Shown here piece after piece: positions 2,779 through 52,749 of a stretch of 64,000 nt of DNA. A program made the position numbers and the translations under genes. This stretch comes from Myxococcaceae bacterium JPH2 (lineage in GTDB: Bacteria; Myxococcota; Myxococcia; Myxococcales; Myxococcaceae): positions 1 to 64,000 of the forward strand of contig JAEMGR010000005.1 of assembly GCA_016458225.1 (NCBI GenBank), in the 5' to 3' direction. Position 1 is the first letter of the stretch. Each line of letters starts with the position of its first letter. The notes beneath the pieces were generated by a model, which was not told where the DNA came from, did not search any database, and saw only the letters and a list, made by a program, of their open reading frames with translations.

Positions 2779-4806
2779 TCAGACAGTGATGCCGCAGGGA
2801 ATCCGGTCAGGCTGCAGGACGGTGTACGGCACATCGCGCTGGGCGTTGCGCACCTTCACGGCCTCGAGCTGGGCGCTCAAGCGCGCATGGAAGCGCTCGC
2901 GAATGGCGTGAAGCGCGGGCTCGTGGAAGTACTCCTCGTGCCAGCCTCCCGCGTGGAGCAGGTACTCCTCATCATCCCCGAAGCTGGAGAGCGCCCGGCC
3001 AATGGCCACCTGCCACAGCGTCTGGGATTTGGTGGGAATCATCGCGGCGATGTCCGCCGGCCCCAGCTTCCCCTTCTCACGCGGCGGCGCGCGGCGAAGG
3101 CACAGCGGGGCGTTGGGCACGAAGGCGTAGTGCTCGTACTGGAGATAGTTCACCGCGGCGTGCTGCACGCTCACCGAGAACAGGACGGTGGTGAGGATCT
3201 CCACCAGGTCCTCCACGCGGTGGAGCGTCGCACACGGCAACTTCTCCACGGGAAGGCCGTGCGCGGTGAGGTCCTCCCACCAGCGCTGCATCTCCCCATC
3301 GGCCACCAGGTCGGCGTCGGTCGCATAGAAGTGCCGCAGGACTCCGCCCACGTACTCCTCCAGCGCATCCCACAGCGGGAGCGACTCGTCGCGATAGGGA
3401 TAGTCCGGCAGCACGGAGGGCTCCAACACCCCGCGCCGAGCCAGGTCGCGGCGCGGCTGGTTGTCCCGCAGGGTCCAGCGCGCGAAGCCCTTCTTGCCCA
3501 ACTGGAGGTGCCCCTTGTCCGGGCCTCCCGTGGCGATGAAGTCGTCGAACACCGCGCCCTCGGCCAGCAGGCCCTTGCGCGCCCCGTCGTTGATGGCGAG
3601 CGTGTAGCGGAAGTGCCGGCGCAGCAGTTTGTAGACGGGATGCGGATCCGGCAGGTTGCGCATCGTCGCCAGGACGAAGGGCTCGGCAATGAAGTGGGTC
3701 CGCAGCGCGTGCGACACCATCTGGTGCGTGTTGCCCTCGCTGCACCGCACGTAGATTTTCGCGGCCAGCCAGTCGTACTCCCCATCGTTCGGCGTGAAGA
3801 CGGGGTCCTGCCTCGCGTCGCGTCCCAGCTGGATGGCGAGCGGTCTCAATCGCTGGCTGTCATCCAGGAACAACAGACACCGGGCAGCGGGCGCCCAGCG
3901 GCGCTCCTCCTCGCCCTCCTTCCCCACCTTCCGGAACATCGGGATGTCTTCGAGGATCTCGAAGTCGATCAAGAAGACGCGCTGGGCCTCGAACGCGCCC
4001 GCCAGCGTCAGCCCCGGGGACAAGAGCCCGCGGACCTCATGGTCCGTCAGCGGCATTCCCTCGGGAAGCGCGCGCATGAGCGTGACATGGATGGGATTGA
4101 TGCCCTGCACCGCTTGCCGCGCGAACTCGTGGTCGTCCTTCCAGCGGTGCGACAGCTGGGGCAGCTCGATGCCCTTGAAGAAGTCGAAGATGTCCACCAG
4201 CCCGTTCCACGCGCTCGCCAGCATGGGCAGATGCAACTGGATGGCGGCCAGTGTCTTGGCGATGACCACCTCGTAGCTGCCCTCGCGCAAGCCTCGGTAG
4301 AGCTCATCCTTCGGCAGCGGCCTCGCTTCGCTGATGTCGAGCGCGCCGGGCAGCCCTTGCGTGGCCTCGGGCGAACGCCAGACATACATCTGCTGCCGGA
4401 CCTGGAGTTGCTCCAGTCGCGCGGACGCCTCGCGCTCGCTGCGCGCGTGCTGCGGAAGTCTCGCCGTTCCTTCCAGGACCTCGGCGTGGGCACCACTCAG
4501 AATCCAGCGGAAGAAGGGGAAGTGCCATTGCCGCTCCCCCGAGGACACCTGGACCGTGTCGAGCAGCCAGTCCCCCGCCACGCCACCCGAGTTGCTCAGG
4601 CGCAGGAGCAGCAGCTCACCCACGTCGCGGTCCGTGACGGAGTAGACCTCCTCCGAACCGGCCTCGAAGTCATTGTGAAAGCGCCGGTCCAGGGCATGCG
4701 ACGCGCTCTCTCCCTCCGTCCCCACCAGGACGACGGAGATGGTCCCGTCCGTCCCCGCCCCCAACCGTGCGCTCGTGCGAATCGTGAGCTTGTACTCGAC
4801 AGTCAT
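2779..4806 (-). CDS. PLAT-domain lipoxygenase
   Basis: A 675-residue lipoxygenase that would insert O2 into polyunsaturated fatty acids to form hydroperoxides. The first ~115 residues look like a PLAT/LH2 beta-sandwich (MTVEYKLTIRTSARLG). The catalytic domain has the first two metal ligands in VSHALRTHFIAEPF (H-x4-H), then the helix with HAAVNYLQYEHYAFVPNAP, which gives the third His and the Asn. The chain ends IPCGITV, so the C-terminal metal ligand is Val instead of the usual Ile. The ATG at 4806 was chosen over a longer reading because GAGAGG precedes it and the PLAT domain starts there. It is the first gene of the operon with the P450 and desaturase. Lipoxygenases are rare in bacteria but known in myxobacteria. 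Confidence 0.93.
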   Translation of the reverse strand: MTVEYKLTIRTSARLGAGTDGTISVVLVGTEGESASHALDRRFHNDFEAGSEEVYSVTDRDVGELLLLRLSNSGGVAGDWLLDTVQVSSGERQWHFPFFRWILSGAHAEVLEGTARLPQHARSEREASARLEQLQVRQQMYVWRSPEATQGLPGALDISEARPLPKDELYRGLREGSYEVVIAKTLAAIQLHLPMLASAWNGLVDIFDFFKGIELPQLSHRWKDDHEFARQAVQGINPIHVTLMRALPEGMPLTDHEVRGLLSPGLTLAGAFEAQRVFLIDFEILEDIPMFRKVGKEGEEERRWAPAARCLLFLDDSQRLRPLAIQLGRDARQDPVFTPNDGEYDWLAAKIYVRCSEGNTHQMVSHALRTHFIAEPFVLATMRNLPDPHPVYKLLRRHFRYTLAINDGARKGLLAEGAVFDDFIATGGPDKGHLQLGKKGFARWTLRDNQPRRDLARRGVLEPSVLPDYPYRDESLPLWDALEEYVGGVLRHFYATDADLVADGEMQRWWEDLTAHGLPVEKLPCATLHRVEDLVEILTTVLFSVSVQHAAVNYLQYEHYAFVPNAPLCLRRAPPREKGKLGPADIAAMIPTKSQTLWQVAIGRALSSFGDDEEYLLHAGGWHEEYFHEPALHAIRERFHARLSAQLEAVKVRNAQRDVPYTVLQPDRIPCGITV

Positions 4807-4892
4807 GACCCTCTCGGCTTTCGCGGGCAGACCGTAGGACGCGACAAAAGTACCCGCAAATGAAGTCCCCCACCCTTTGGAATGCCTTGAAA

Positions 4893-4904
4893 GTACTGAA
4901 GTAC
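4893..4904. promoter_or_regulatory. Inverted repeat in divergent promoter region
   Basis: GTACT-GA-AGTAC is a perfect inverted repeat with 5-base arms in the 268-base gap between the lipoxygenase (minus) and the lipoprotein gene (plus), 87 bases upstream of the lipoxygenase ATG. The surrounding ~100 bases are clearly less GC-rich than the genes, as expected for a promoter. It could be an operator for the lipoxygenase operon. Nothing else in the gap is recognisable. Confidence 0.3.
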
Positions 4905-5074
4905 ACGCTCTCTTCGGCCTGTTGGGATGATCCGGAAGAAGGCAACGCCTGGAGCCCAAACCATCCCATGCGACAGGCGCGTCTCCCCGCGTCAATGCAT
5001 GACACGGCCACTCGCCGGCTTGAACTCCCGTGGGGCCCTCGATATCCCGCGCCGGTACTCAGGAGCGTCCCAAC

Positions 5075-44142: not shown

Positions 44143-44481
44143 CCTCAGGCAGCCTCCGATGAAGCGAGGGCACCCGCGACCCGGACGACCGGACAATCGG
44201 GGCACCGTGAAGGGGCCCGACGCAAGGACGATGGGTTCCTGACAGTCGAACGTCCCGGGCAAGAGCCCCAGCGGAAAAAGCCCCCCTGTCAGGCAATCCA
44301 CCGCTCGCCGTCCCTCGCCGCAACGCTTTCGAGCGCCCGGCCGAGCAGGCCCCACAAGCTGTGGTTCAACTCCACGCATGTGCCTCTGGCACGTGTCCGC
44401 CGGCGGTCCGGCACTGAATTTTGGATTCAGACCCACGGCCTGCTCACTCGGGTGCTCACTTTCCTTTCGGAGTCCCCCGTC
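44143..44481. other. Divergent intergenic region
   Basis: These 339 bases separate the sigma gene (minus) from the phosphatase gene (plus) and must hold both promoters. I see no credible ORF, tRNA or repeat. The stretch near 44400-44480 is the least GC-rich part and leads to the phosphatase ATG. No -24/-12 (sigma-54) or clear ECF consensus could be picked out by eye. Confidence 0.4.
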
Positions 44482-45189
44482 ATGTCCGCGCGTACCATTG
44501 TCATTGGCGACCTCCACGGCTGCTACCACGAGGCCTTGGAGCTGCTCGCCAAGGTCGGCGCGACGCAGAGCGACCGCGTCATCTTCGCGGGCGACCTCGT
44601 GGACCGTGGGCCTCAGCAGCGCGAGTGCGTGGAGCTGGCCATGCAGCACGAGGCCATCCTCGGCAACCACGAAGAGAAGCACCTCCAGCAGCGACACCGC
44701 GCCGACGAGAAGCTGCTGCCCGACCACCTGGAGACGCGCCGCGCGCTAGAGCCCCGTCACTTCGATTGGCTGGAGCGACTGCCGCACTATCTCCGGCTAC
44801 CCGAGCACAACGCCGTCGTGGTGCACGCGGGCATGATGCCCGGCATCCCCGTGGAGGCACAGGACCCGTATCACCTGCTGCATGCACAGTGCATCCAGCC
44901 ACCCTCCAAGAAGAGCTACTGGCCCTCCAAGGCCCCCGAAACCGCGACCTTCTGGACGAACCACTGGCGCGGACCGGAGCGGATCATCTTCGGCCACACG
45001 GTGTTCGACCGACCGCTTGTCACCGAGCACGCGGTGGGAATCGACACGGGCTGCGTCTACGGGCGCTCGCTGACCGCGGTGGTGCTGCCGTCCTGGGAGC
45101 TGGTCTCCGTGCCTGCTCGGGACACGTACCGGGGTGGCAAGTCCGTCGCGAGAATCCCCGTGCACGGCGACGTGTGCGCCTTCTCCTAG
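44482..45189 (+). CDS. PPP-family metallophosphatase (ApaH/PrpE-like)
   Basis: A 235-residue calcineurin-like phosphatase of the PPP family. The metal-binding motifs are VIGDLHGCYHEALELL (GDxHG), FAGDLVDRGPQQ (GDxVDRG) and ILGNHEEKH (GNHE), then VVVHAGMMPG and IIFGHTVFDRPL with the last His residues. Relatives are the diadenosine tetraphosphatase ApaH, PrpE, and protein Ser/Thr phosphatases; ApaH also removes NpnN caps from RNA. It ends 47 bases before the Y RNA gene on the same strand. A part in RNA-end metabolism with the Y RNA/Ro locus is possible but only suggested by position. Confidence 0.92.
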   Translation: MSARTIVIGDLHGCYHEALELLAKVGATQSDRVIFAGDLVDRGPQQRECVELAMQHEAILGNHEEKHLQQRHRADEKLLPDHLETRRALEPRHFDWLERLPHYLRLPEHNAVVVHAGMMPGIPVEAQDPYHLLHAQCIQPPSKKSYWPSKAPETATFWTNHWRGPERIIFGHTVFDRPLVTEHAVGIDTGCVYGRSLTAVVLPSWELVSVPARDTYRGGKSVARIPVHGDVCAFS

Positions 45190-45236: not shown

Positions 45237-45370
45237 GCGCCCGGCCGCTGAGGCCCCACAAGCACCCATTCATCCAGTTGTCGCGGGTTCGAATCCCGCC
45301 GGGGCCACTTCGTGGCCTCGTAGCTCAGCCTGGTAGAGCGCTGGCAAAAATGGCTTCAGCACTCGGGCGC
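45237..45370 (+). ncRNA. Y RNA (YrlA-type) with circularly permuted tRNA domain
   Basis: A 134-nt RNA with a clear fold. The ends close with GCGCCCG (45237-45243) to CGGGCGC (45364-45370), then a 3x3 internal loop, then GCTGAGGCC (45247-45255) to GGCTTCAGC (45352-45360), one G-U. After a large loop a tRNA-like module follows: CCAG/CTGG (45274-45277 with 45341-45344) in place of the anticodon stem. Next come a 5-nt variable loop, the T arm GCGGG-TTCGAAT-CCCGC (45283-45299), acceptor strand CGGGGCC (45300-45306), loop ACTTCGT, acceptor strand GGCCTCG (45314-45320), and the D arm GCTC-AGCCTGGTA-GAGC (45323-45339). This is a tRNA opened at its anticodon and closed at its acceptor end, the design of bacterial YrlA RNAs, which bind Ro60. 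TTTT follows at 45374, as in a terminator. A Ro60-like gene starts 26 bases downstream. Confidence 0.88.
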
Positions 45371-45395
45371 ACCTTTTCCCCGGAGGGGGACTCCC

Positions 45396-47159
45396 ATGAC
45401 CACGACCCAGAACCCGACGTCCCTGCCGGAGGCGCATCGTGGCCCCGCCGAGCGCTTGCTCGAGCTGGTCCTCGGTGGCTCGGCGCACCTGTGGCACAAC
45501 CGGCCGGGCCTCAACGTGTCCGGCACCTGGTATGCGGCCGCGCATGCCACCCCGCAGCAGCGCGCACGCGGCCGGCCCGTGGCGCCGGGCTTGTTCGCGC
45601 CCGCGGCGGTGAACCTCTACCGACAGCTCCTCGACATCTATCGGCTCAACGCCGAGCTGATGGCGCACTTCGCCTCCTACGCGTTGACGCAGACCGACTG
45701 GCGCGACCTCAAGGTCGCCACGTGCGCGCTCATGCTCGTGCAGGAGCACGCAGGTCAGCCCGTGCGCGGGGACCAGGGGGAGATCGCCTTCCATGACGAC
45801 GACTGGCGCGCCATCGGCGAGGCCATGGTGCTGCACTACGAGCGCAAGTCCCTGCGCATGCTGACGCCCAAGTCGGTGCTGCGCGTGGCCGAGCTGCTCG
45901 AGCACCCGGAGATCGCCCAGCTCAACCGGGCCGCGGGCTTTGGTGATCCGGCGTCCCGCAAGGCGCCGCTGGGTCGCTGGAAGCGCGTGGCCACCCGGTG
46001 GCTCGCGGCGCGCGAGTCGAACCTGCCCATGCTCCAAGGGCTGGTGAAGGCGGGCTACAAGGAGACGCTGAAGAAGCTGGCGCGCAAGGCGGGCTACAAG
46101 CCGTCCTCGCCGACCTTCTTCGAGGTGCTCGGGTGGAAGCAGAAGCAGTCCTCCGGGGGTCACCGCGCGGTGGGCCTGGAAGGGCTGCGCCTGGTGAAGC
46201 GTGAGCGCTTCGATGGCCTCAGCGAGGCGGAGATCTGCGAGTGGATCAGCCTGGAGCGGCTCTCCTACAAGGACGTCGTGGGGCGCTTGCCGAAGGACGT
46301 GGGACTGACGCCGGCCATCCTGGCGGCGGTGCTCCCGTCCCTCTCGGATCGCGACCTGCGCATGATGACGCCCACGCTGGAGGAGCTGGGGCTGTTGGAG
46401 GACTCCGCCGTGAAGGCGCGGTGGGAGAAGGCCGTGGCCACGGCGACGGATCAGCGTGCGCTCAACATCGCGAAGAACGTGCGTGGGCAGGCCCTGCGCC
46501 AGAAGCTGGAGGAGGCGAGCGACAACGCCGCGCGGCAGGCAGTGGCCGAGGCGACGGCGGAGACAGACGTGCGAGTCATGTTCCTCGTCGACAAGTCGGG
46601 GTCCATGGAAGGCGCCATCGAGCAGTCGAAGGAGGCGCTCGCGCGAATCCTCGCGGGCTTCCCCTTGGACAAGCTGCACGTGGCGGCGTTCGACACGATG
46701 GGCACATTGCTCAAGCCCAAGGCGGCCAACCGCGCGGCGGTCCAGCACATGTTGGGCAGCCTGAGGGCATCCGGCGGCACGGTGCATGGCGCCGCGGTGC
46801 ACGCGCTGCACCGCGACGGCGTGAGGGTTCCCACCGAGGCGCGGCTCGTCGTCATCGTGGTGGGAGACGAGGCGGGCGAGGCGGGCGATCAGTTCGCTCG
46901 GGCGTTCCGGGACTGCGGCTACACCGTGTCCGCCCTGGCGCTGATGGTGAGTGTGGTGGGAGCGCGAGGCAACACGGTGCGCACGTGCGCCACGCAGCTT
47001 CGCGTGCCGTTCAGTGAGGTGCAGGTGGAGCAGTTCGCGGATCCGTACCAGGTTCCGCGGGTGCTCAAGGCGTTGCTGGACGCGCCCGCTGCCACGGGAG
47101 TCAGCCAGTCCGGCTGGGTCGAGCGTGTCATGCGGACCCCGTTGTTGAAGGTGGCCTGA
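45396..47159 (+). CDS. Ro60/TROVE-like protein: helical repeats plus vWA domain
   Basis: A 587-residue protein with the two-part build of Ro60 (Rsr). Residues ~20-380 are almost all helical, as in the HEAT-repeat ring of the TROVE domain (VATCALMLVQEHAG, KSVLRVAELLEHPE, MLQGLVKAGYKETLKKLARK). Residues ~395-570 are a von Willebrand A domain with the MIDAS motif FLVDKSGSM (DxSxS) near 398. Ro60 binds Y RNA on its outer surface and threads RNA ends through its ring; in bacteria it works with PNPase, and the Y RNA is encoded beside it. The sequence is diverged from classical Ro60, so the call rests on architecture plus the adjacent Y RNA gene. GGAGGGGG precedes the ATG. Confidence 0.85.
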   Translation: MTTTQNPTSLPEAHRGPAERLLELVLGGSAHLWHNRPGLNVSGTWYAAAHATPQQRARGRPVAPGLFAPAAVNLYRQLLDIYRLNAELMAHFASYALTQTDWRDLKVATCALMLVQEHAGQPVRGDQGEIAFHDDDWRAIGEAMVLHYERKSLRMLTPKSVLRVAELLEHPEIAQLNRAAGFGDPASRKAPLGRWKRVATRWLAARESNLPMLQGLVKAGYKETLKKLARKAGYKPSSPTFFEVLGWKQKQSSGGHRAVGLEGLRLVKRERFDGLSEAEICEWISLERLSYKDVVGRLPKDVGLTPAILAAVLPSLSDRDLRMMTPTLEELGLLEDSAVKARWEKAVATATDQRALNIAKNVRGQALRQKLEEASDNAARQAVAEATAETDVRVMFLVDKSGSMEGAIEQSKEALARILAGFPLDKLHVAAFDTMGTLLKPKAANRAAVQHMLGSLRASGGTVHGAAVHALHRDGVRVPTEARLVVIVVGDEAGEAGDQFARAFRDCGYTVSALALMVSVVGARGNTVRTCATQLRVPFSEVQVEQFADPYQVPRVLKALLDAPAATGVSQSGWVERVMRTPLLKVA

Positions 47160-47187: not shown

Positions 47188-48174
47188 GTGGACTACCGGA
47201 AGTTTCTCGGAAAGGCGCAGTCGATGGTGCTGCCGTATTGCGGCGGCGGGACCGTCGATGCGCCTTCACGCCGCCTCCGCGTCACCACTCCGGTCCAACC
47301 GGGCTGGTGGCGCTTCGAGGTGCAGGGGCGCCATGCGACCGCGCGAGAGGTGGCCGAGCCGGAGGGCTTGGACTCATGTCCGCGCGTCCGAGGACACCTC
47401 TGGGGAACGCGCCTCGTGCGCGACGGCGCGGTCGCGGAGCGCCTGGAGCTGATGCCGGAGGAGGAGCCGCCCCGCTTGTCGTGGGTCGTCGCCCGTCGCT
47501 GGCATGGCGGCACGCTCCTGTTCGATAGCCTGGAGTTCGAGAGCGAAGCAGAGGACGGCGCGCGGCGGGCCCTGGAGGAAGGACGAACCCTGGCCGGAGC
47601 CAAGGGCGTCAGCGCGTCCCTTCGCGCGGCCTTCGGCTATGCCGTCGTCGACGCAGTGGCGCGGACGCAAGGCATTCACTTCGCGCCGGCGGAAGTGCGC
47701 GGCAAGGTCCTCGCCATCTCGGAAGGAGGACGCACCGAGGCCGAGGCCGTTCTCTCGCGGCTGATCACCGAACGCGAGGTCCATCAACGCGCCCTGGCTC
47801 AGCGAGAAGCCGCGCGCGAGCAAGCAGCACGCGCACAGACACAGCCGCTCCACGCACGACCAGCCACGCGCCCTCAAGGACGAAGCTCACGTGTCGAGGC
47901 GGAGGGCCACCCGTCTGAGCGCGTGGAGCGCGCGCTGGAGAGCGCGGGCGCGCGGCTCTATGCCCAGCGCCGGCTGAGCAACGGGCTGCTCGAAGTGACC
48001 TATGGCTTCATGGACGAGCGCTTCGTCTCCGTGGTGGACGCCCAGACGCTTCAAGTACGAGACGCCGGGGTCTGCCTCGCGGGCGCGGATGACCGGGTGA
48101 CGTTGGAGAGCCTGCCCTCGGTCATTCGCGAGGCCATCGAGTCGGACGTGCTGGTCATCACCCGACACGCCTGA
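47188..48174 (+). CDS. Unknown protein of the Ro60-like operon
   Basis: A 328-residue protein that I do not recognise. The GTG start has GGAGG 5 bases upstream and lies 28 bases after the Ro60-like stop. The N-terminal ~110 residues look beta-rich, with WWRFEVQGR, CPRVRGHLWGTRLVRDG and WVVARRWHGGTLLFDS. Residues ~120-215 are helical, ending in a Gln/Arg/Ala-rich coiled-coil-like stretch (HQRALAQREAAREQAARAQ). Residues ~250-328 form a second compact part with RRLSNGLLEVTYGFMDERF. The co-transcription suggests it helps Ro60, for example as an RNA- or protein-binding adaptor, but nothing in it proves this. Confidence 0.8.
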   Translation: MDYRKFLGKAQSMVLPYCGGGTVDAPSRRLRVTTPVQPGWWRFEVQGRHATAREVAEPEGLDSCPRVRGHLWGTRLVRDGAVAERLELMPEEEPPRLSWVVARRWHGGTLLFDSLEFESEAEDGARRALEEGRTLAGAKGVSASLRAAFGYAVVDAVARTQGIHFAPAEVRGKVLAISEGGRTEAEAVLSRLITEREVHQRALAQREAAREQAARAQTQPLHARPATRPQGRSSRVEAEGHPSERVERALESAGARLYAQRRLSNGLLEVTYGFMDERFVSVVDAQTLQVRDAGVCLAGADDRVTLESLPSVIREAIESDVLVITRHA

Positions 48175-48193: not shown

Positions 48194-48562
48194 ATGCCCC
48201 ACGCCACCTTGCGCGAAGTCTGTGCCCTCATCGGGCGAGGGGGTGGGGTGCTCTGGAGCGATGCGTCCGACAGCCCCATCCTGCTGCCGGACTCCCGCGC
48301 GCGCTGGGAGGCCATCTGGCGCCTTCGCGAGGAGCTGGAGGAGATCGCCCACAGTCATCCCGTGGGACCTCGGGGGTTCTCCCACGAGGACGAGACGACG
48401 ATGCGCGCGCTCACCGAGGCGCTCGGGCGCGCCGTGCGCTTCTCGGTAGTCGCCCCCGACGGCATGGTGGCGCGCATCGGGAGCGAGGACGTACACCTCA
48501 CCGCGGAGCCCGAGTGGGCCGCGTGGTTGCGCCGCGCCTCGGGCATGCACGAGGCGCCGTAA
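48194..48562 (+). CDS. Small JAMM/MPN-motif protein of the Ro60-like operon
   Basis: A 122-residue protein with a complete JAMM signature: HSHPVGPRGFSHED (H-x-H-x7-S-x2-D, residues ~53-66), and an N-terminal EVCALIGRGGGV (Glu8) that fits the E-x-C-x-L-x-G start of JAB/MPN metalloproteases. In that family the two His and the Asp bind Zn2+, and Glu activates water, cleaving isopeptide or C-terminal ubiquitin-like bonds, or Cys/other conjugates. It starts 19 bases after the previous gene, so it is the third gene of the Ro60-like operon. No ubiquitin-like or E1/E2 gene is visible in the window. The motif match is by eye. Confidence 0.78.
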   Translation: MPHATLREVCALIGRGGGVLWSDASDSPILLPDSRARWEAIWRLREELEEIAHSHPVGPRGFSHEDETTMRALTEALGRAVRFSVVAPDGMVARIGSEDVHLTAEPEWAAWLRRASGMHEAP

Positions 48563-48828: not shown

Positions 48829-49050
48829 GGCGTCTCCTGGTTCGCACGACCATAGCAACGCGCGGACACGACGCGGGTAGCGCGCCCCCCGCCGCTCCAC
48901 GTTCCATCCCAGATACGGACAGGGCCGCGGGCAAAGCAACGCCCGACCCGCACGTTCCGTATCGGTTTCGCGGGGAGTTTCATGTCATGGAGCAACCTTC
49001 CAGGACATGGATTTTCCACGAATGTCAGAGCAGATTGCTTTGTCTAGCGA

Positions 49051-49066
49051 CTCACGAGATTGTGAG
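49051..49066 (+). promoter_or_regulatory. Hairpin over the ribosome site of the first FemAB-like gene
   Basis: CTCAC-GAGATT-GTGAG forms a 5-bp hairpin ending 6 bases before the ATG at 49073, so it overlaps the only Shine-Dalgarno-like bases (TGAGA). The leader from about 48950 to 49072 is near 50% GC, far below the genes. The structure may lower or control translation of the operon. Confidence 0.3.
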
Positions 49067-49072
49067 AATTCC

Positions 49073-50893
49073 ATGATTCTTTACGACGAGAGCAACCTCT
49101 CCCAGCTCTCCTGGCCCGACACCTCCGAGGGGCGATTCGCGCGGGACTTCCTCTCCCCGCTGCTGCGCCAAGGCACCTCGGCCTACGTCTCGGACCGCAC
49201 CACCCTGCGCCTGGTGCAGGTGGATGACCTGGTCCTCCCGCTGGCCATCAACGACTCCGAGTACGACAACTCAGCCCTCTTCTCGACCTTCTCGCGATAC
49301 ATCACGTTGCAGTTGTCCGCGGTCACCGCCGAGGCGTGGGGACCGTTCCGCGCGTGGCTCGTGCGCGGCGTGATGAAGACGCTGGGGCTGCTGCTCAAGG
49401 CCTCGAAGATCGACCGGTGCGTCTACGTGGACCACTGGCTGATGCTGCGCAACCTCGGCGTGACGCTGTCCGCCGAGCAGGTGCGGCGGCTCTCGGACTT
49501 CCTGGCGTCACGCTTCCCCAAGCACGCCATCGTCTTCCAGGCCGTGAATCCGGCCACCCACGCGCCGCTGCTGAACACCTTGAAGGACCAGGGCTACGAC
49601 TTCGTCTACGCGGCCCACACGCGCATGCTCGTGCCCTACAAGGCCGAGGTCAGCCGGCAGGTGCGCGAGAACCGCCGACGCGACGCGCGGCTGCTCGAGG
49701 CCGCGGGCTATCAGCTCGTGGATGGCCGGAAGATGCCGGACTGCGCGCCGAGACTCGTCGAGCTGTACCGCGCGCTGAACGGCGAGAAGTACTCGACGAA
49801 CCTGCAGTTCTCGACCGAGTTCTTCGACACCACGCTGCGCGAGGGGATCCTCGAGTACCGGCTCGCGGTGAAGGACGGGCGCATCGATGGCTTCTACAGC
49901 TTCATGGTCAGCCACGACGTCGTCTCCTCGCCGGGCTTTGGCTACGACCTGAGCCTCCCGCAGGACCTCGGGCTGTATCGCGGGCTCGTGTATCACCTGA
50001 TGCAAGAGGCGGTGGATCGCGGGCTGACCATCGAGCTGGGCGCGGGCGCGGATCAATTCAAGAGCTTGCGCGGCGACAAGGGCGTGCCCCGCTACAGCGC
50101 GGTGTACCTGCGTCACCTCCCAGAGTGGCGCAAGGCCGGATGGAGGCTGCTCCAGCGCTTCGCCAACGGCGGCCTGCTGCCCGCCTCCAAGGGATACCTG
50201 GGCGGAATCGAAGGCGAGCCGCCCGTGGGCTTCGACGGCATGCCCGACACGTTCTCGCCCCCCATGCCCATGGGCCCGCGCGAGGCGGCGACGGCGCTGC
50301 GGCAGGAGTTGGACCTGCTGGAGCGAGGACTCGACGAGACGGCCGGACTCGAAGGCGAAGCGCTGGCGCGGAGCCTCACGCCGCTCGCGGACAAGCTCCA
50401 CAACTGGCCCCAGCCCACGCTGCGTGTCCTCGAGCTGCGCGAGAAGCTGGCGAAGCGGGAGCAGGAAGCTCGGCGCAAGGACTCCGCGCGCCCGAAGGCC
50501 GAGCAGCCCGCGGCCTCGGAGCAGGCACAGCAGCTCCTCGACGCCGCCACACGCATGGGGGAGACCGCCCTCGTGGCGCGACACCTGGGTGACGCTTCCG
50601 CCCAGCACCTGCGCGCGGTCGTGGAGTGTCTGCGACAGGCCCCAGGTCCCACCGCGGTGGTCCTCACCGCGTGTCGAGGCGAGAAGGTGGTGCTCGTCAC
50701 CGCCGCGACACAAGCACTGCTCGCGCGCGGCGTGGATGCCAGCCAGCTCATGGCGCAGGTCGCGCCCTCGGTGGGCGGCAAGGGTGGAGGTTCACCCGAC
50801 GTCGCCTGGGGCGGAGGCTCACGCCCCGATGGCATTGACGCTGCGCTCAGCGCCGCTCGCGATTACCTCCAGGCGAGTCTTGGCAGTCATTGA
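49073..50893 (+). CDS. FemAB/GNAT-like acyltransferase with C-Ala (DHHA1-type) domain, copy 1
   Basis: A 606-residue protein of unusual make-up. Residues ~90-400 resemble the FemAB/BioF2 double-GNAT fold (QVRENRRRDARLLEAAGY, then ELYRALNGEKYSTN and GADQFKSLRGDKGVPRY). About 420-500 is a helical linker. The last ~110 residues match the end of alanyl-tRNA synthetase, the C-Ala/DHHA1 domain, with APSVGGKGGGSPDVAWGGG (from residue ~563) in place of AlaRS G-G-x-G-G-G-R-x-x-x-A. C-Ala grips the tRNA elbow, and FemAB enzymes transfer amino acids from aminoacyl-tRNA. The fusion therefore suggests a tRNA-dependent aminoacyl transferase; this is inference. ATG 49073 aligns with the paralogue start; ATGs at 49007 and 49022 lie in low-GC leader. 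Confidence 0.82.
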   Translation: MILYDESNLSQLSWPDTSEGRFARDFLSPLLRQGTSAYVSDRTTLRLVQVDDLVLPLAINDSEYDNSALFSTFSRYITLQLSAVTAEAWGPFRAWLVRGVMKTLGLLLKASKIDRCVYVDHWLMLRNLGVTLSAEQVRRLSDFLASRFPKHAIVFQAVNPATHAPLLNTLKDQGYDFVYAAHTRMLVPYKAEVSRQVRENRRRDARLLEAAGYQLVDGRKMPDCAPRLVELYRALNGEKYSTNLQFSTEFFDTTLREGILEYRLAVKDGRIDGFYSFMVSHDVVSSPGFGYDLSLPQDLGLYRGLVYHLMQEAVDRGLTIELGAGADQFKSLRGDKGVPRYSAVYLRHLPEWRKAGWRLLQRFANGGLLPASKGYLGGIEGEPPVGFDGMPDTFSPPMPMGPREAATALRQELDLLERGLDETAGLEGEALARSLTPLADKLHNWPQPTLRVLELREKLAKREQEARRKDSARPKAEQPAASEQAQQLLDAATRMGETALVARHLGDASAQHLRAVVECLRQAPGPTAVVLTACRGEKVVLVTAATQALLARGVDASQLMAQVAPSVGGKGGGSPDVAWGGGSRPDGIDAALSAARDYLQASLGSH

Positions 50894-50925
50894 ATTCCGT
50901 GTCGCGTCACCGGACTCACCCGACC

Positions 50926-52749
50926 ATGCACCTCTACGACGAGACCCAGATCGAGGCGGCCCCTTGGCCAGACACCGAGGAAGGCCGACAGGCGAGAAGC
51001 TTCCTCGTGCCGCTGTTCCAACAGGGCCCTCAAGCCTTCTTCGAAGACAAGGCCAGCATGCGATTGCTGGCCATGGATGACCTGTGCATCCCGCTGTCCG
51101 TCACCGAATCGCCACACGACAACTCGTATTTCTTCTCGATGTTCGCGCGCTACATCACCAGCCAGCGCGCCGCCATCAAGACAGGCAATTGGAGCCCCGT
51201 CGCCGGCTTCGTCGCCAGCAGCGCGCTGTGGGGCGTGGGGTCTCTGCTCAAGGCCGCGCAGATCGACAAATGCGTGCAGGTCGACAACTGGCCCACCATG
51301 CGCAACATGGGCGCGGCCCTGGACGCGGACCAGGTGAAGCGCCTCACCGAGTTTCTCGTGTCGCGCTTTCCGCACCACGCGATTGTCTTTCCCGCGCTGA
51401 ATCCCGCCACGCACTCCCCGCTGCTCAACCACTTGAAGGGGCACGGCTACGAGTTCGCGTACATGACGCATACGCGAATGCTGCTGCCCTTCGGGTTGGA
51501 GCTGAGCCGACGCGCCTTTGAGAACCGTCGCCGCGACGGCCGCATCGTGGAGACCACCGACTACTCGCTCGTCGAAGGGAAGGATGTTCCGGGCTGCGCC
51601 CCTCGGCTCGCCGAGCTGTACCGGATGCTGAATCGGGAGAAGTACACGACCAACCCACCCATCACGACCGCGTTCTTCGAGGCGGCGCTGCGTTCGGACA
51701 AGTACCGCATCCGCCTGCTCGTGAAGGACGGGCGTGTCGACATGTTCTACGGCGTCACCATCAAGGACGACGTCGTCAACTGCGCGCTCTCTGGCTACGA
51801 CATCACGCTGCCGCAGGAGTTGGGGCTGTATCGCATGCTCAACAACCTCCTGATGATGGAGGCCCTCGACCGCGGGCTCGCCATCGAGACAGGCGGCGGC
51901 GCGGATCAGTTCAAGACGCTGCGCGGCGACCGGCCTCTTCCTCGCTACAACGCGGTGTACCTGAAGCACCTCTCCGCCCGCCGCAGGGGCGGATGGAGGC
52001 TGGTGCAGCGACTGGCCAATGAGTCCCTCCTGAACGTGAGCCGCGCCCGGCTCAAGCAGGTGGACGGAGACGAGAATGTCGCCGGCTTCGACGGCATCCC
52101 CGAGACCTTCGCGCCCCCGTTCCTGAGTCCGCGCGAGTCTGTCCAGCTGCTGCGTCAGGAGTTGGACGCGCTGGAGAAGGCGCTCGACGAGGCCGCCGCG
52201 CTGGAGGGACTGGAGCGCGTCCACCGGCTCTCCGAACTGTCGAAGCGCCTGGAGAACGAGCAACTCCCCCGCGCCCGGGTCGCGGAGCTTCGCCAGCGCT
52301 GCGAGTCGCTCGCGTCGGCGATGCAGAAAGACAAGCGCGCGCGAAAGTCCGCGGGGCGAGCGCAGCGCGCGGAACAGGCGCGTCAACTCCTGGAGCAGGC
52401 TTCGAAGCTGGGCGACACCACGCTCGTCGCGAAGCACCTGGGCGAGGCCCCGCTGCATCACCTGCGCACGTTGGCGGAGCTGCTGCGCAAGTCGGCTCCA
52501 AACGCCGCGGTCGTCCTCGCGGCGACCCAGGGCTCCACCGTCGCGCTCGTCACGGCCGCGACTCGGGACCTCATCGAGCGCGGAGTGAACGCGGGCATCC
52601 TGCTCGCACAGGCCGCGCCCTCGGTGGGCGGCACGGGCGAGGGAAGCCCTGAGATTGCGTGGGCAGAGGGGCCTCGACCGGAGGGCATCGCGGCGGCGCT
52701 GGACGCCACCCACGCCTTCCTCCAGGCCCGGCTGAACCCTCCGACCTGA
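50926..52749 (+). CDS. FemAB/GNAT-like acyltransferase with C-Ala domain, copy 2
   Basis: A 607-residue paralogue of the gene before it, collinear over the whole length: MHLYDETQIEAAPWPDTEEG against MILYDESNLSQLSWPDTSEG. The FemAB-like core has ELSRRAFENRRRDGRIVETT, ELYRMLNREKYTTNPPITTA and GADQFKTLRGDRPLPRY. The C-terminal C-Ala-like domain reads APSVGGTGEGSPEIAWAEG, so one of the conserved glycines of copy 1 and of AlaRS has become Glu. The pair may have different tRNA or amino-acid substrates. It starts 32 bases after copy 1 and is followed by the NRPS gene 73 bases later. Function is inferred from fold resemblance only. Confidence 0.82.
   Translation: MHLYDETQIEAAPWPDTEEGRQARSFLVPLFQQGPQAFFEDKASMRLLAMDDLCIPLSVTESPHDNSYFFSMFARYITSQRAAIKTGNWSPVAGFVASSALWGVGSLLKAAQIDKCVQVDNWPTMRNMGAALDADQVKRLTEFLVSRFPHHAIVFPALNPATHSPLLNHLKGHGYEFAYMTHTRMLLPFGLELSRRAFENRRRDGRIVETTDYSLVEGKDVPGCAPRLAELYRMLNREKYTTNPPITTAFFEAALRSDKYRIRLLVKDGRVDMFYGVTIKDDVVNCALSGYDITLPQELGLYRMLNNLLMMEALDRGLAIETGGGADQFKTLRGDRPLPRYNAVYLKHLSARRRGGWRLVQRLANESLLNVSRARLKQVDGDENVAGFDGIPETFAPPFLSPRESVQLLRQELDALEKALDEAAALEGLERVHRLSELSKRLENEQLPRARVAELRQRCESLASAMQKDKRARKSAGRAQRAEQARQLLEQASKLGDTTLVAKHLGEAPLHHLRTLAELLRKSAPNAAVVLAATQGSTVALVTAATRDLIERGVNAGILLAQAAPSVGGTGEGSPEIAWAEGPRPEGIAAALDATHAFLQARLNPPT

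Follow-up and report, generated by a model that had tools for sequence, protein, structure and literature searches.

A circularly permuted tRNA module in a Y RNA beside a Ro60-like gene of a myxobacterium, and related RNAs in phage loci

Transfer RNA genes in which the 3´ half precedes the 5´ half are found in algae and archaea, where they are matured to working tRNAs with an anticodon and CCA. The two halves of a tRNA are also swapped in bacterial Y RNAs. The closest described RNA is YrlA (Rfam RF02553), in which a permuted tRNA elbow is carried on a stem and the gene lies beside that of Ro60; the structure of the Salmonella RNA (6CU1; Wang et al., 2018, cited in PMC11472068) superposes on tRNAs in circularly permuted order (PMC11472068). 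Binding to Ro60 and PNPase as well as dihydrouridine and pseudouridine have been reported for YrlA (PMC8394870). Other bacterial Y RNAs are described as holding Rsr by the stem and PNPase by the tRNA-like part, giving rise to a degradation machine (PMC8394870, PMC7790460). A phage Ro60-like protein is mentioned in PMC7765460, where YrlA is said to be present in several phages.

An RNA of this type, here called Y RNA 2, is found in the window, the stretch of 64,000 nucleotides of Myxococcaceae DNA that was analysed (Table 1). A sequence-only reading had described at this place a complete tRNA body in permuted order, and all the parts that it named are present at its coordinates and in its order. 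The outer stems A and B have 7 and 9 bp, the acceptor strands form 7 of 7 pairs, and the loop that joins them, ACTTCGT, could add two closing pairs. Like the algal and archaeal permuted tRNAs, Y RNA 2 has the 3´ half first; unlike them, it has no anticodon and no CCA. The anticodon hairpin is absent from the sequence and CCA does not follow the discriminator base; a working tRNA, which the earlier reading had rejected, is very improbable. More generally, the order 5´ half before 3´ half, the anticodon and the CCA or free 3´ end by which a tRNA gene is recognized are not found in Y RNA 2. The expectation that a tRNA finder would pass over it proved correct, as ARAGORN reported nothing in the 64-kb window; an Rfam scan of the window gave no family at its gathering score.

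In a permissive search of 301 nt, the YrlA model aligned to Y RNA 2 at 49.1 bits (E = 2.7e-10), as against a gathering score of 69 bits. The match spans positions 45275–45343, corresponding to positions 23–85 of the 114 in the model, which is the permuted tRNA module. Thus, the T arm, closed acceptor and D arm of YrlA are present in permuted order, and the proposed likeness to the YrlA mimic holds for this module, while the gathering score is missed and the outer stem is unlike that of YrlA. Because the outer stem and the ACAMGC motif differ from RF02553, we class Y RNA 2 as YrlA-like rather than as YrlA. The RF02553 cut-off may be strict in this order of bacteria, since two YrlA loci beside TROVE matches in the same order, at 65.9 and 65.1 bits, are also below 69. 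A permuted tRNA mimic beside Ro60 is already known from YrlA, and Y RNA 2 is a diverged member of this class.

The minimum free energy fold of the 134 nt has -66.2 kcal/mol (z = -3.86; 1 of 200 shuffles equally good) and contains the T arm, the acceptor and both outer stems. In this fold the D-arm region is paired otherwise and the anticodon-stem remnant is missing, and the structure in Table 1, with a comparative energy of -58.0 kcal/mol, was therefore rested on comparison. Downstream of the RNA, TTTT at 45374–45377 may aid termination; a consensus scan for promoter and terminator found none for Y RNA 2, and this TTTT was not called.

Table 1. Features of the Y RNA and Ro60-like locus (positions in the window)
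Feature	Position	Strand	Basis
Y RNA 1: same Ro stem, permuted T arm, acceptor and D-like arm, and a complete anticodon-type hairpin	44333..44455	+	
Y RNA 1, anticodon-type arm CTGAA-TTTTGGA-TTCAG	44414..44430	+	
Calcineurin-like metallophosphoesterase, between both Y RNAs	44482..45189	+	Pfam PF00149
Y RNA 2: Ro stem around a circularly permuted tRNA without anticodon arm	45237..45370	+	comparison, YrlA and R1 models
Outer stem A, 5´ strand (partner 45364-45370)	45237..45243	+	
Outer stem B, 5´ strand (partner 45352-45360), covarying in relatives	45247..45255	+	
ACAAGC motif (ACAMGC is the selection anchor; A, C, A, G, C invariant in A4)	45258..45263	+	
Anticodon-stem remnant, 5´ strand CCAG (partner 45341-45344)	45274..45277	+	
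T arm GCGGG-TTCGAAT-CCCGC, loop TTCGAAT	45283..45299	+	
Acceptor stem, strands 45300-45306 and 45314-45320, 7-base loop between	45300..45320	+	
D arm, GG in loop	45323..45339	+	
Anticodon-stem remnant, 3´ strand CTGG	45341..45344	+	
Outer stem B, 3´ strand, running into conserved CACTCGG	45352..45360	+	
Outer stem A, 3´ strand, followed by ACC and TTTT	45364..45370	+	
Ro60-like protein, 587 aa, helical-repeat ring (predicted) and VWA domain with DKSGSM	45396..47159	+	
Conserved neighbour of the Ro60-like gene, 328 aa, weak OB-fold hints at N terminus	47188..48174	+	
JAB-domain-like protein, third conserved gene of the module, below Pfam cut-off	48194..48562	+	

The sequence-only reading was right that the Y RNA is real and saw only one of the two in the window. 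Y RNA 1 scores 72.7 bits with the covariance model R1 described below, outside the training set of which Y RNA 2 (105.7 bits) is part. A third and weaker Y-like RNA (E = 6.7e-5) lies on another contig of the source genome (G000:C2:23192-23308, L188); its outer stems of 7 and 8 pairs are all paired and its insert differs. An inverted repeat is seen upstream of Y RNA 1 at 44233–44297 (GGGTTCCTGACAG at 44233, CTGTCAGGCAA at 44286), and similar TTCCTGAC/GTCAGGAA motifs are found upstream in several relatives, including where the Y RNA is absent there; this repeat is possibly an operator.

The Ro60-like gene starts 25 bases downstream of Y RNA 2. VWA-type Pfam models match its product. The TROVE profile (PF05731) gave no match to it at E <= 10 and none in the seven phage and bacterial relatives scanned, i.e. 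0 of 8 family members, in scans in which few matches with E above about 0.1 pass the HMMER filters. A structure predicted by AlphaFold2 from 24 sequences (pLDDT 80, pTM 0.51) has as its top Foldseek matches 9nfa (E = 5.3e-9), 1yvp (Xenopus Ro), 9kop and the Deinococcus Rsr 2nvo (E = 6.8e-7), at 11–15% identity to these four and 11–16% to Ro60 entries. A second aligner superposed 427 residues on 2nvo (Z = 14.6, 4.9 A) and 426 on 9kop (Z = 14.9); single VWA domains reach Z = 15.2 and cover only that domain. As in Rsr and Ro60, a ring and VWA fold of about 430 residues is thus predicted together with the MIDAS-like DKSGSM (motif DxSGS), which is invariant in 17 of 17 aligned proteins. The Ro60-like neighbour named by the sequence-only reading is upheld by the predicted fold with both aligners and not by the TROVE profile, and the model supports the assignment of the product to a strongly diverged Ro60-family ring protein. 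The product is 98% identical to a protein of Citreicoccus inhibens, which places the source genome in or close to that genus. At E <= 0.001 the canonical TROVE profile finds only 2 of 145 genomes of the order, the source genome not among them; a looser limit adds G091.

The neighbourhood differs from those described for Rsr and Ro60 in that the conserved neighbours are the 328-aa protein and the JAB-like protein, found together with the Ro60-like gene in 20 of 24 related loci compared. A fold search with the 328-aa protein gave no convincing match (best Foldseek E = 0.02, to exosome subunits; best Z = 5.2), and the JAB-like protein hints at a ubiquitin-like link. The rsr-yrlBA-rtcBA RNA repair operon of Salmonella likewise brings two Y RNAs and a Ro60 homologue together, as far as it is described in PMC7790460, whereas in the window the gene order is another and an ApaH/Pnkp-like phosphoesterase gene lies between the Y RNAs. 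The latter gene starts at ATG 44482, an alternative GTG at 44452 falling within Y RNA 1, and its NCBIfam matches (ApaH-type E = 5.7e-27, Pnkp E = 1.8e-22, PrpE E = 9.2e-22) are all below curated cut-offs. It is present in only 4 of the 24 loci, which weakens a reading as RNA repair. Two large open frames of similar length, at 49007–50893 and 50890–52749, adjoin each other further downstream. At the end of the first is a DHHA1 domain, which is known from alanyl-tRNA synthetase.

The Ro60-like protein is encoded in 75 of 145 genomes of the order (E <= 1e-20). A constant RNA part recurs upstream of its gene and consists of stem A with the consensus GCGCCCG/CGGGCGC, an internal loop GCCG/CACT, stem B and then ACAMGC; a scan for the stem up to 1.5 kb upstream gave 1 false match in 516,957 shuffled bases. 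From this material 97 distinct RNAs were chosen by the anchors ACAMGC and ACTCGG only, with no pairing filter, such that the conservation of these two motifs in the set is partly by construction. Fourteen or fifteen of the 15 outer-stem pairs are formed in 84 of the 97, and stem B covaries. The outer-stem score is low in five, four of which (Y1 of L026, L028, L029 and L030) are one base off register and were returned to the Y1 alignment.

Covariation in relatives had been named by the sequence-only reading as the check on its proposal, and it is strong, stem B included. In alignment A4, comprising 39 Y2-type RNAs with Y RNA 2 among them, 97.6% of cells are paired (30–49% in slid controls), two-sided changes are seen in 21 of 36 pairs, and the observed values are reached by 0 of 500 shuffles. 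The T arm, acceptor and D arm all have compensating changes; the helix of the anticodon arm, missing in the YrlA-like rows (8–9 gaps per pair), has 92.1% of cells paired. A4 holds 39 of the 43 RNAs on a Y2 list that omitted linear and tRNA-less forms, the hard-to-align rows from L053 (4211-4345, 4408-4541) and L107 (921-1035, 400-549) having been left out; with R1 the two L053 RNAs score 94.8 and 103.8 bits. Alignment A3, with 44 RNAs of the Y1 kind, has 93.4% of cells paired and two-sided changes in 15 of 37 pairs. Here, further pair types are reached by 25 of 500 shuffles and the other four measures by none of 500; the anticodon-type stem is 98.6% paired. As far as the compared sequences tell, these RNAs are built from a constant part, comprising the two covarying outer stems, GCCG/CACT and ACAMGC, and a variable tRNA-derived module on top.

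The covariance model R1 was made from A4 and run over the 145 genomes with stricter filters. At E <= 1e-8, a limit set after inspection of the table and among related genomes that do not amount to 145 independent trials, a match is found in 74 of the 75 genomes with the Ro60-like protein and in none of the 70 without. Training sequences, or sequences identical to them, come from 34 of the 74; the other 40 contributed none. The exception, G134, is an estimated 85% complete and has a best E of 3.3e-4. At E <= 0.001, 99 of 145 genomes match, some of them without the protein; the best match in a protein-free genome, at 7.9e-6, is near the floor set by tandem tRNAs, which can imitate the permuted order and reach up to 49.8 bits with R1 inside a phage tRNA array. 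The YrlA model was rejected as the sole detector, as its matches in 64 of 145 genomes are accompanied by matches in 6 of 14 controls, including E. coli and B. subtilis, which are probably tandem tRNAs. No Y RNA was found in 21 of 115 regions upstream of the gene, where copies of one genome count separately; at least three genomes of this kind (G047, G132, G135) have Y RNAs elsewhere. More Y RNAs distant from the Ro60-like gene are seen in L176–L185, with two in tandem in L176 and L178. One record titled Comamonas sp. KCTC 72670 (BNCN01000002.1, L061) contains a myxobacterial locus of this family, identical upstream to that of G107; its name or the culture is probably wrong.

Four kinds of insert are found on one constant stem, which sets the family apart from YrlA: its relatives of Y RNA 2 may carry a full anticodon-type arm at the junction with the variable region, a linear tRNA or no tRNA, and the RF02553 consensus structure has no anticodon hairpin. 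In the YrlA-like kind (a), seen in Y RNA 2, its close relative in L003 and RNAs of L104, L105 and L107, a shortened anticodon stem connects the Ro stem with the elbow, and this anticodon stem is kept by compensation in six RNAs (CCAG/CTGG, CTCG/CGAG, CTTG/CGAG, CACG/CGTG, CGTC/GACG). Kind (b) is a permuted cloverleaf that has a complete anticodon-type arm and is attached to the Ro stem by its variable region; Y1, many Y2 of Myxococcus and the RNA of L121, whose protein is 43% identical, belong here, and one L107 RNA appears to have a long variable arm as well. In Myxococcus and its kin Y2 often has the anticodon-type arm. A linear tRNA within the Ro stem, joined at the acceptor, makes up kind (c), found in L055, L056 and as the third RNA of L053. 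Kind (d) has no tRNA and is seen in Archangium (L046, L048, L099), in L039 and in the RNA that comes first in each of L053 and L055. Kinds b, c and d occur side by side in L053, where seven Y RNAs stand in a row at 3787–4930. A script sorted 92 RNAs into permuted modules, of which 50 had a perfect anticodon-type hairpin, 24 one of four pairs and 10 none, and into 6 without T arm and 2 linear; these counts are approximate, with misparses found by eye, namely Y2 of L001 and L003 and the second RNA of L104, all YrlA-like, the third RNA of L053, which is linear, and its second, with a mismatched T arm.

Relatives of the protein with 35–42% identity are found in 33 IMG/VR loci (search with alignment A2), 18 of them on contigs of >200 kb; from size and neighbours, the loci are taken as belonging to giant phages. 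The fetched flanks of 23 of the 33 contain tRNA genes, with 132 matches at the gathering score; L156/L167 and L164/L165 have identical tRNA coordinates, look like near copies and are counted doubly in this figure. The Ro60-like gene of the named virus Rctr197k is flanked by some 30 annotated tRNAs in a row. Six of the 132 matches are 131–141 nt long and are tRNAs with an insert in the variable region. Long variable arms are a feature of class II tRNAs; the arm in the phage RNAs is likewise an extra arm in the variable region, but of about 48–65 nt, with an ACAMGC end and a resemblance to the Ro stem of Y RNAs.

A scan for such a Ro-arm hairpin with a T arm after it gave 14 phage matches in seven loci and 0 matches in 5x shuffles of one strand; with the T-arm condition removed, chance matches occur (6 in 497,196 shuffled bases at score 12). 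A match in L155 was dropped as lying within coding sequence and one at L169:7822 as cut by the locus end, which leaves 12 in six of the 33 loci (L147, L152, L157, L166, L168, L169). In all 12 an upstream 5´ half pairs 7 of 7 with the acceptor strand, the best of about 32 positions, and the Ro arm lies between the anticodon arm and the T arm. These 12 RNAs are linear tRNAs with a Ro-type arm as variable arm. Eight myxobacterial matches of the same scan were set aside as chance or as Y RNAs nearby. A simple permuted-tRNA finder, too, was discarded for phage tRNA arrays, as its 30 matches were accompanied by 3 in a plain array of six tRNAs; what is said here of phages is based on the Ro-arm scan and R1. 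Permuted Y RNAs occur in phage loci too, two in L169 (74.4 and 69.8 bits) and one in L171 (54.8 bits), the last only 5 bits above the floor for tRNA pairs but with the outer stem and ACAAGC. Related RNAs, linear or permuted, are thus found in 7 of 33 phage loci; in the other 26 and in Rctr197k, R1 gave at most 42.5 bits and plain tRNA pairs only, and the surroundings of the Ro60-like gene of Rctr197k, although they include the tRNA array, yielded neither a Ro arm nor a Y RNA. Since the anticodon loops are often irregular, several not being of 7 nt and, by eye, about 3 of 12 combining a length of 7 nt with T33, the phage Ro-arm tRNAs are probably mostly mimics rather than decoding tRNAs. At about 2040–2160 in L164 and L165, ACAAGC, a D-loop-like stretch, an anticodon-type arm, a T arm and an acceptor hairpin follow each other, which may represent a permuted tRNA whose opening lies in the D arm.

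The observations are best explained by Y RNA 2 being the RNA partner of a diverged Ro60-like ring, with a permuted tRNA module that would gate or tether and a circular order shared with the phage tRNAs; we assign this reading as a whole a probability of about 0.75. The identity of Y RNA 2 as a Y RNA is well supported and very likely. The constant stem would be bound by the ring, and the module would fold as a tRNA elbow and present the complex of ring and RNA to a tRNA-binding partner, e.g. the exonuclease PNPase; alternatively, the module may gate the ring. This mechanism, drawn by analogy, is offered tentatively, at somewhat less than an even chance. The setting is likely RNA surveillance or the protection of tRNAs under attack.

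The phage tRNAs and the anticodon-bearing Y RNAs have one circular order in common: acceptor, D arm, anticodon arm, Ro arm, T arm and acceptor again. In the phage form the opening lies at the acceptor; in the Y form the acceptor is closed and the opening lies at the tip of the Ro arm. It is likely that both are one RNA circle opened at two places, such that permutation would amount to joining the acceptor ends and opening the Ro arm at its tip. As the phage relatives would represent the same circle opened at the acceptor, the permuted form most likely arose by way of tandemly repeated Ro-arm tRNAs; where two such tRNAs are adjacent, as in L168 and L152, transcription from one arm to the next would give the Y order. 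One intriguing, if rather doubtful, possibility combines these elements. In it, tRNAs would have grown a Ro60-binding arm in the variable region, tandem copies would have given the permuted form, the TROVE-negative Ro60 of phages would hold tRNAs or mimics with differing loops as shields or baits against tRNA-cleaving enzymes, and Y RNA 2 would later have lost its anticodon arm. Of this scheme, the architecture common to Y RNAs and phage tRNAs is observed; direction and function are conjecture.

Several simpler accounts of the tRNA-like module fare poorly. Tandem tRNAs mimic the pattern, and Y RNA 2 might be an artefact of two adjacent tRNA genes or a pair of tRNA pseudogenes; yet its acceptor strands form 7 of 7 pairs and covary, the module is framed by two outer stems whose loops are conserved, and across genomes the RNA goes with the Ro60-like gene. 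The covariation and the coupling to the protein together refute this account. The intact acceptor, T and D arms in permuted order would fit a permuted gene for a functional tRNA, with RNase P and RNase Z cutting the acceptor loop during maturation; given that Y RNA 2 has no anticodon, that its acceptor strand and discriminator base are not immediately followed by CCA, and that the halves would be held together solely via the Ro stem, such a gene is very improbable. A reading as vestige, in which tRNA genes captured next to the Ro stem would have left the tRNA-like part behind and only that stem would matter, gains something from the Archangium-type Y RNAs without the module and from the wide differences between modules among species. 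It is disfavoured, and we consider it improbable, because a remnant would decay, whereas the T arm, acceptor and D arm have compensating changes and the Y1 anticodon-type stem is almost fully paired.

A role as decoy, in which tRNA baits or substitutes held by Ro60 absorb or resist tRNA-cleaving enzymes such as the anticodon nucleases of phages or competitors, is the main rival. It would be a special case of the preferred reading, with a ring that displays bait and tethers no nuclease and with anticodon-type loops that track the attackers. A role of this kind for YrlA is suggested in PMC7790460, phage tRNAs are reported to overcome tRNA-cleaving defences (PMC11555353), and the phage Ro60-like gene is often found beside tRNA arrays. 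The anticodon-type arm of the Y1 kind also fits: it has 5 bp and, in 39 of 44 sequences, a 7-nt loop, of which 29 are distinct, with pyrimidine 32 in 28, T33 in 25 and purine 37 in 25 of these 29, and with positions 34–36 free and the most variable. However, T33 is present in only 3 of 10 distinct 7-nt loops of Y2 in Myxococcus and its kin and, by eye, in only about 3 of 12 among the phage forms, an anticodon arm is altogether lacking in Y RNA 2, and PADLOC assigned 0 families to five proteins of the neighbourhood. Furthermore, the loop at the acceptor tip of the Y1 kind varies as much as the anticodon loop, and for this reason loop variability alone is not read as a sign of an arms race. We regard the decoy role as unlikely.

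With the partner of the Ro60-like ring as the preferred reading, the family supplies natural intermediates, namely linear Ro-arm tRNAs, permuted cloverleaves with an anticodon-type arm, YrlA-like RNAs and tRNA-less RNAs, which sometimes co-occur in one locus or one phage and suggest how such RNAs arose. Among the open-access papers that ranked searches listed, none that was seen describes the anticodon-bearing, linear or phage Ro-arm forms. A Ro60 lineage that escapes the standard profiles used here comes to light as well. For annotators, a caution follows from the linear tRNAs within the Ro stem: ARAGORN calls them tRNA-Met(CAU) in L055, tRNA-Arg(GCG) in L056 and tRNA-Ser(CGA) in L053, and the Rfam tRNA model gives 50.3 bits in L055 and 61.2 bits in L053 (L056 lying outside that scan). 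These labels are an annotation trap, as the modules belong to Y RNAs; the L053 "tRNA-Ser" has no long variable arm and lies inside a Ro stem. At 4273–4467 in the same locus, the tRNA model fuses halves of two adjacent Y RNAs into one long false tRNA.
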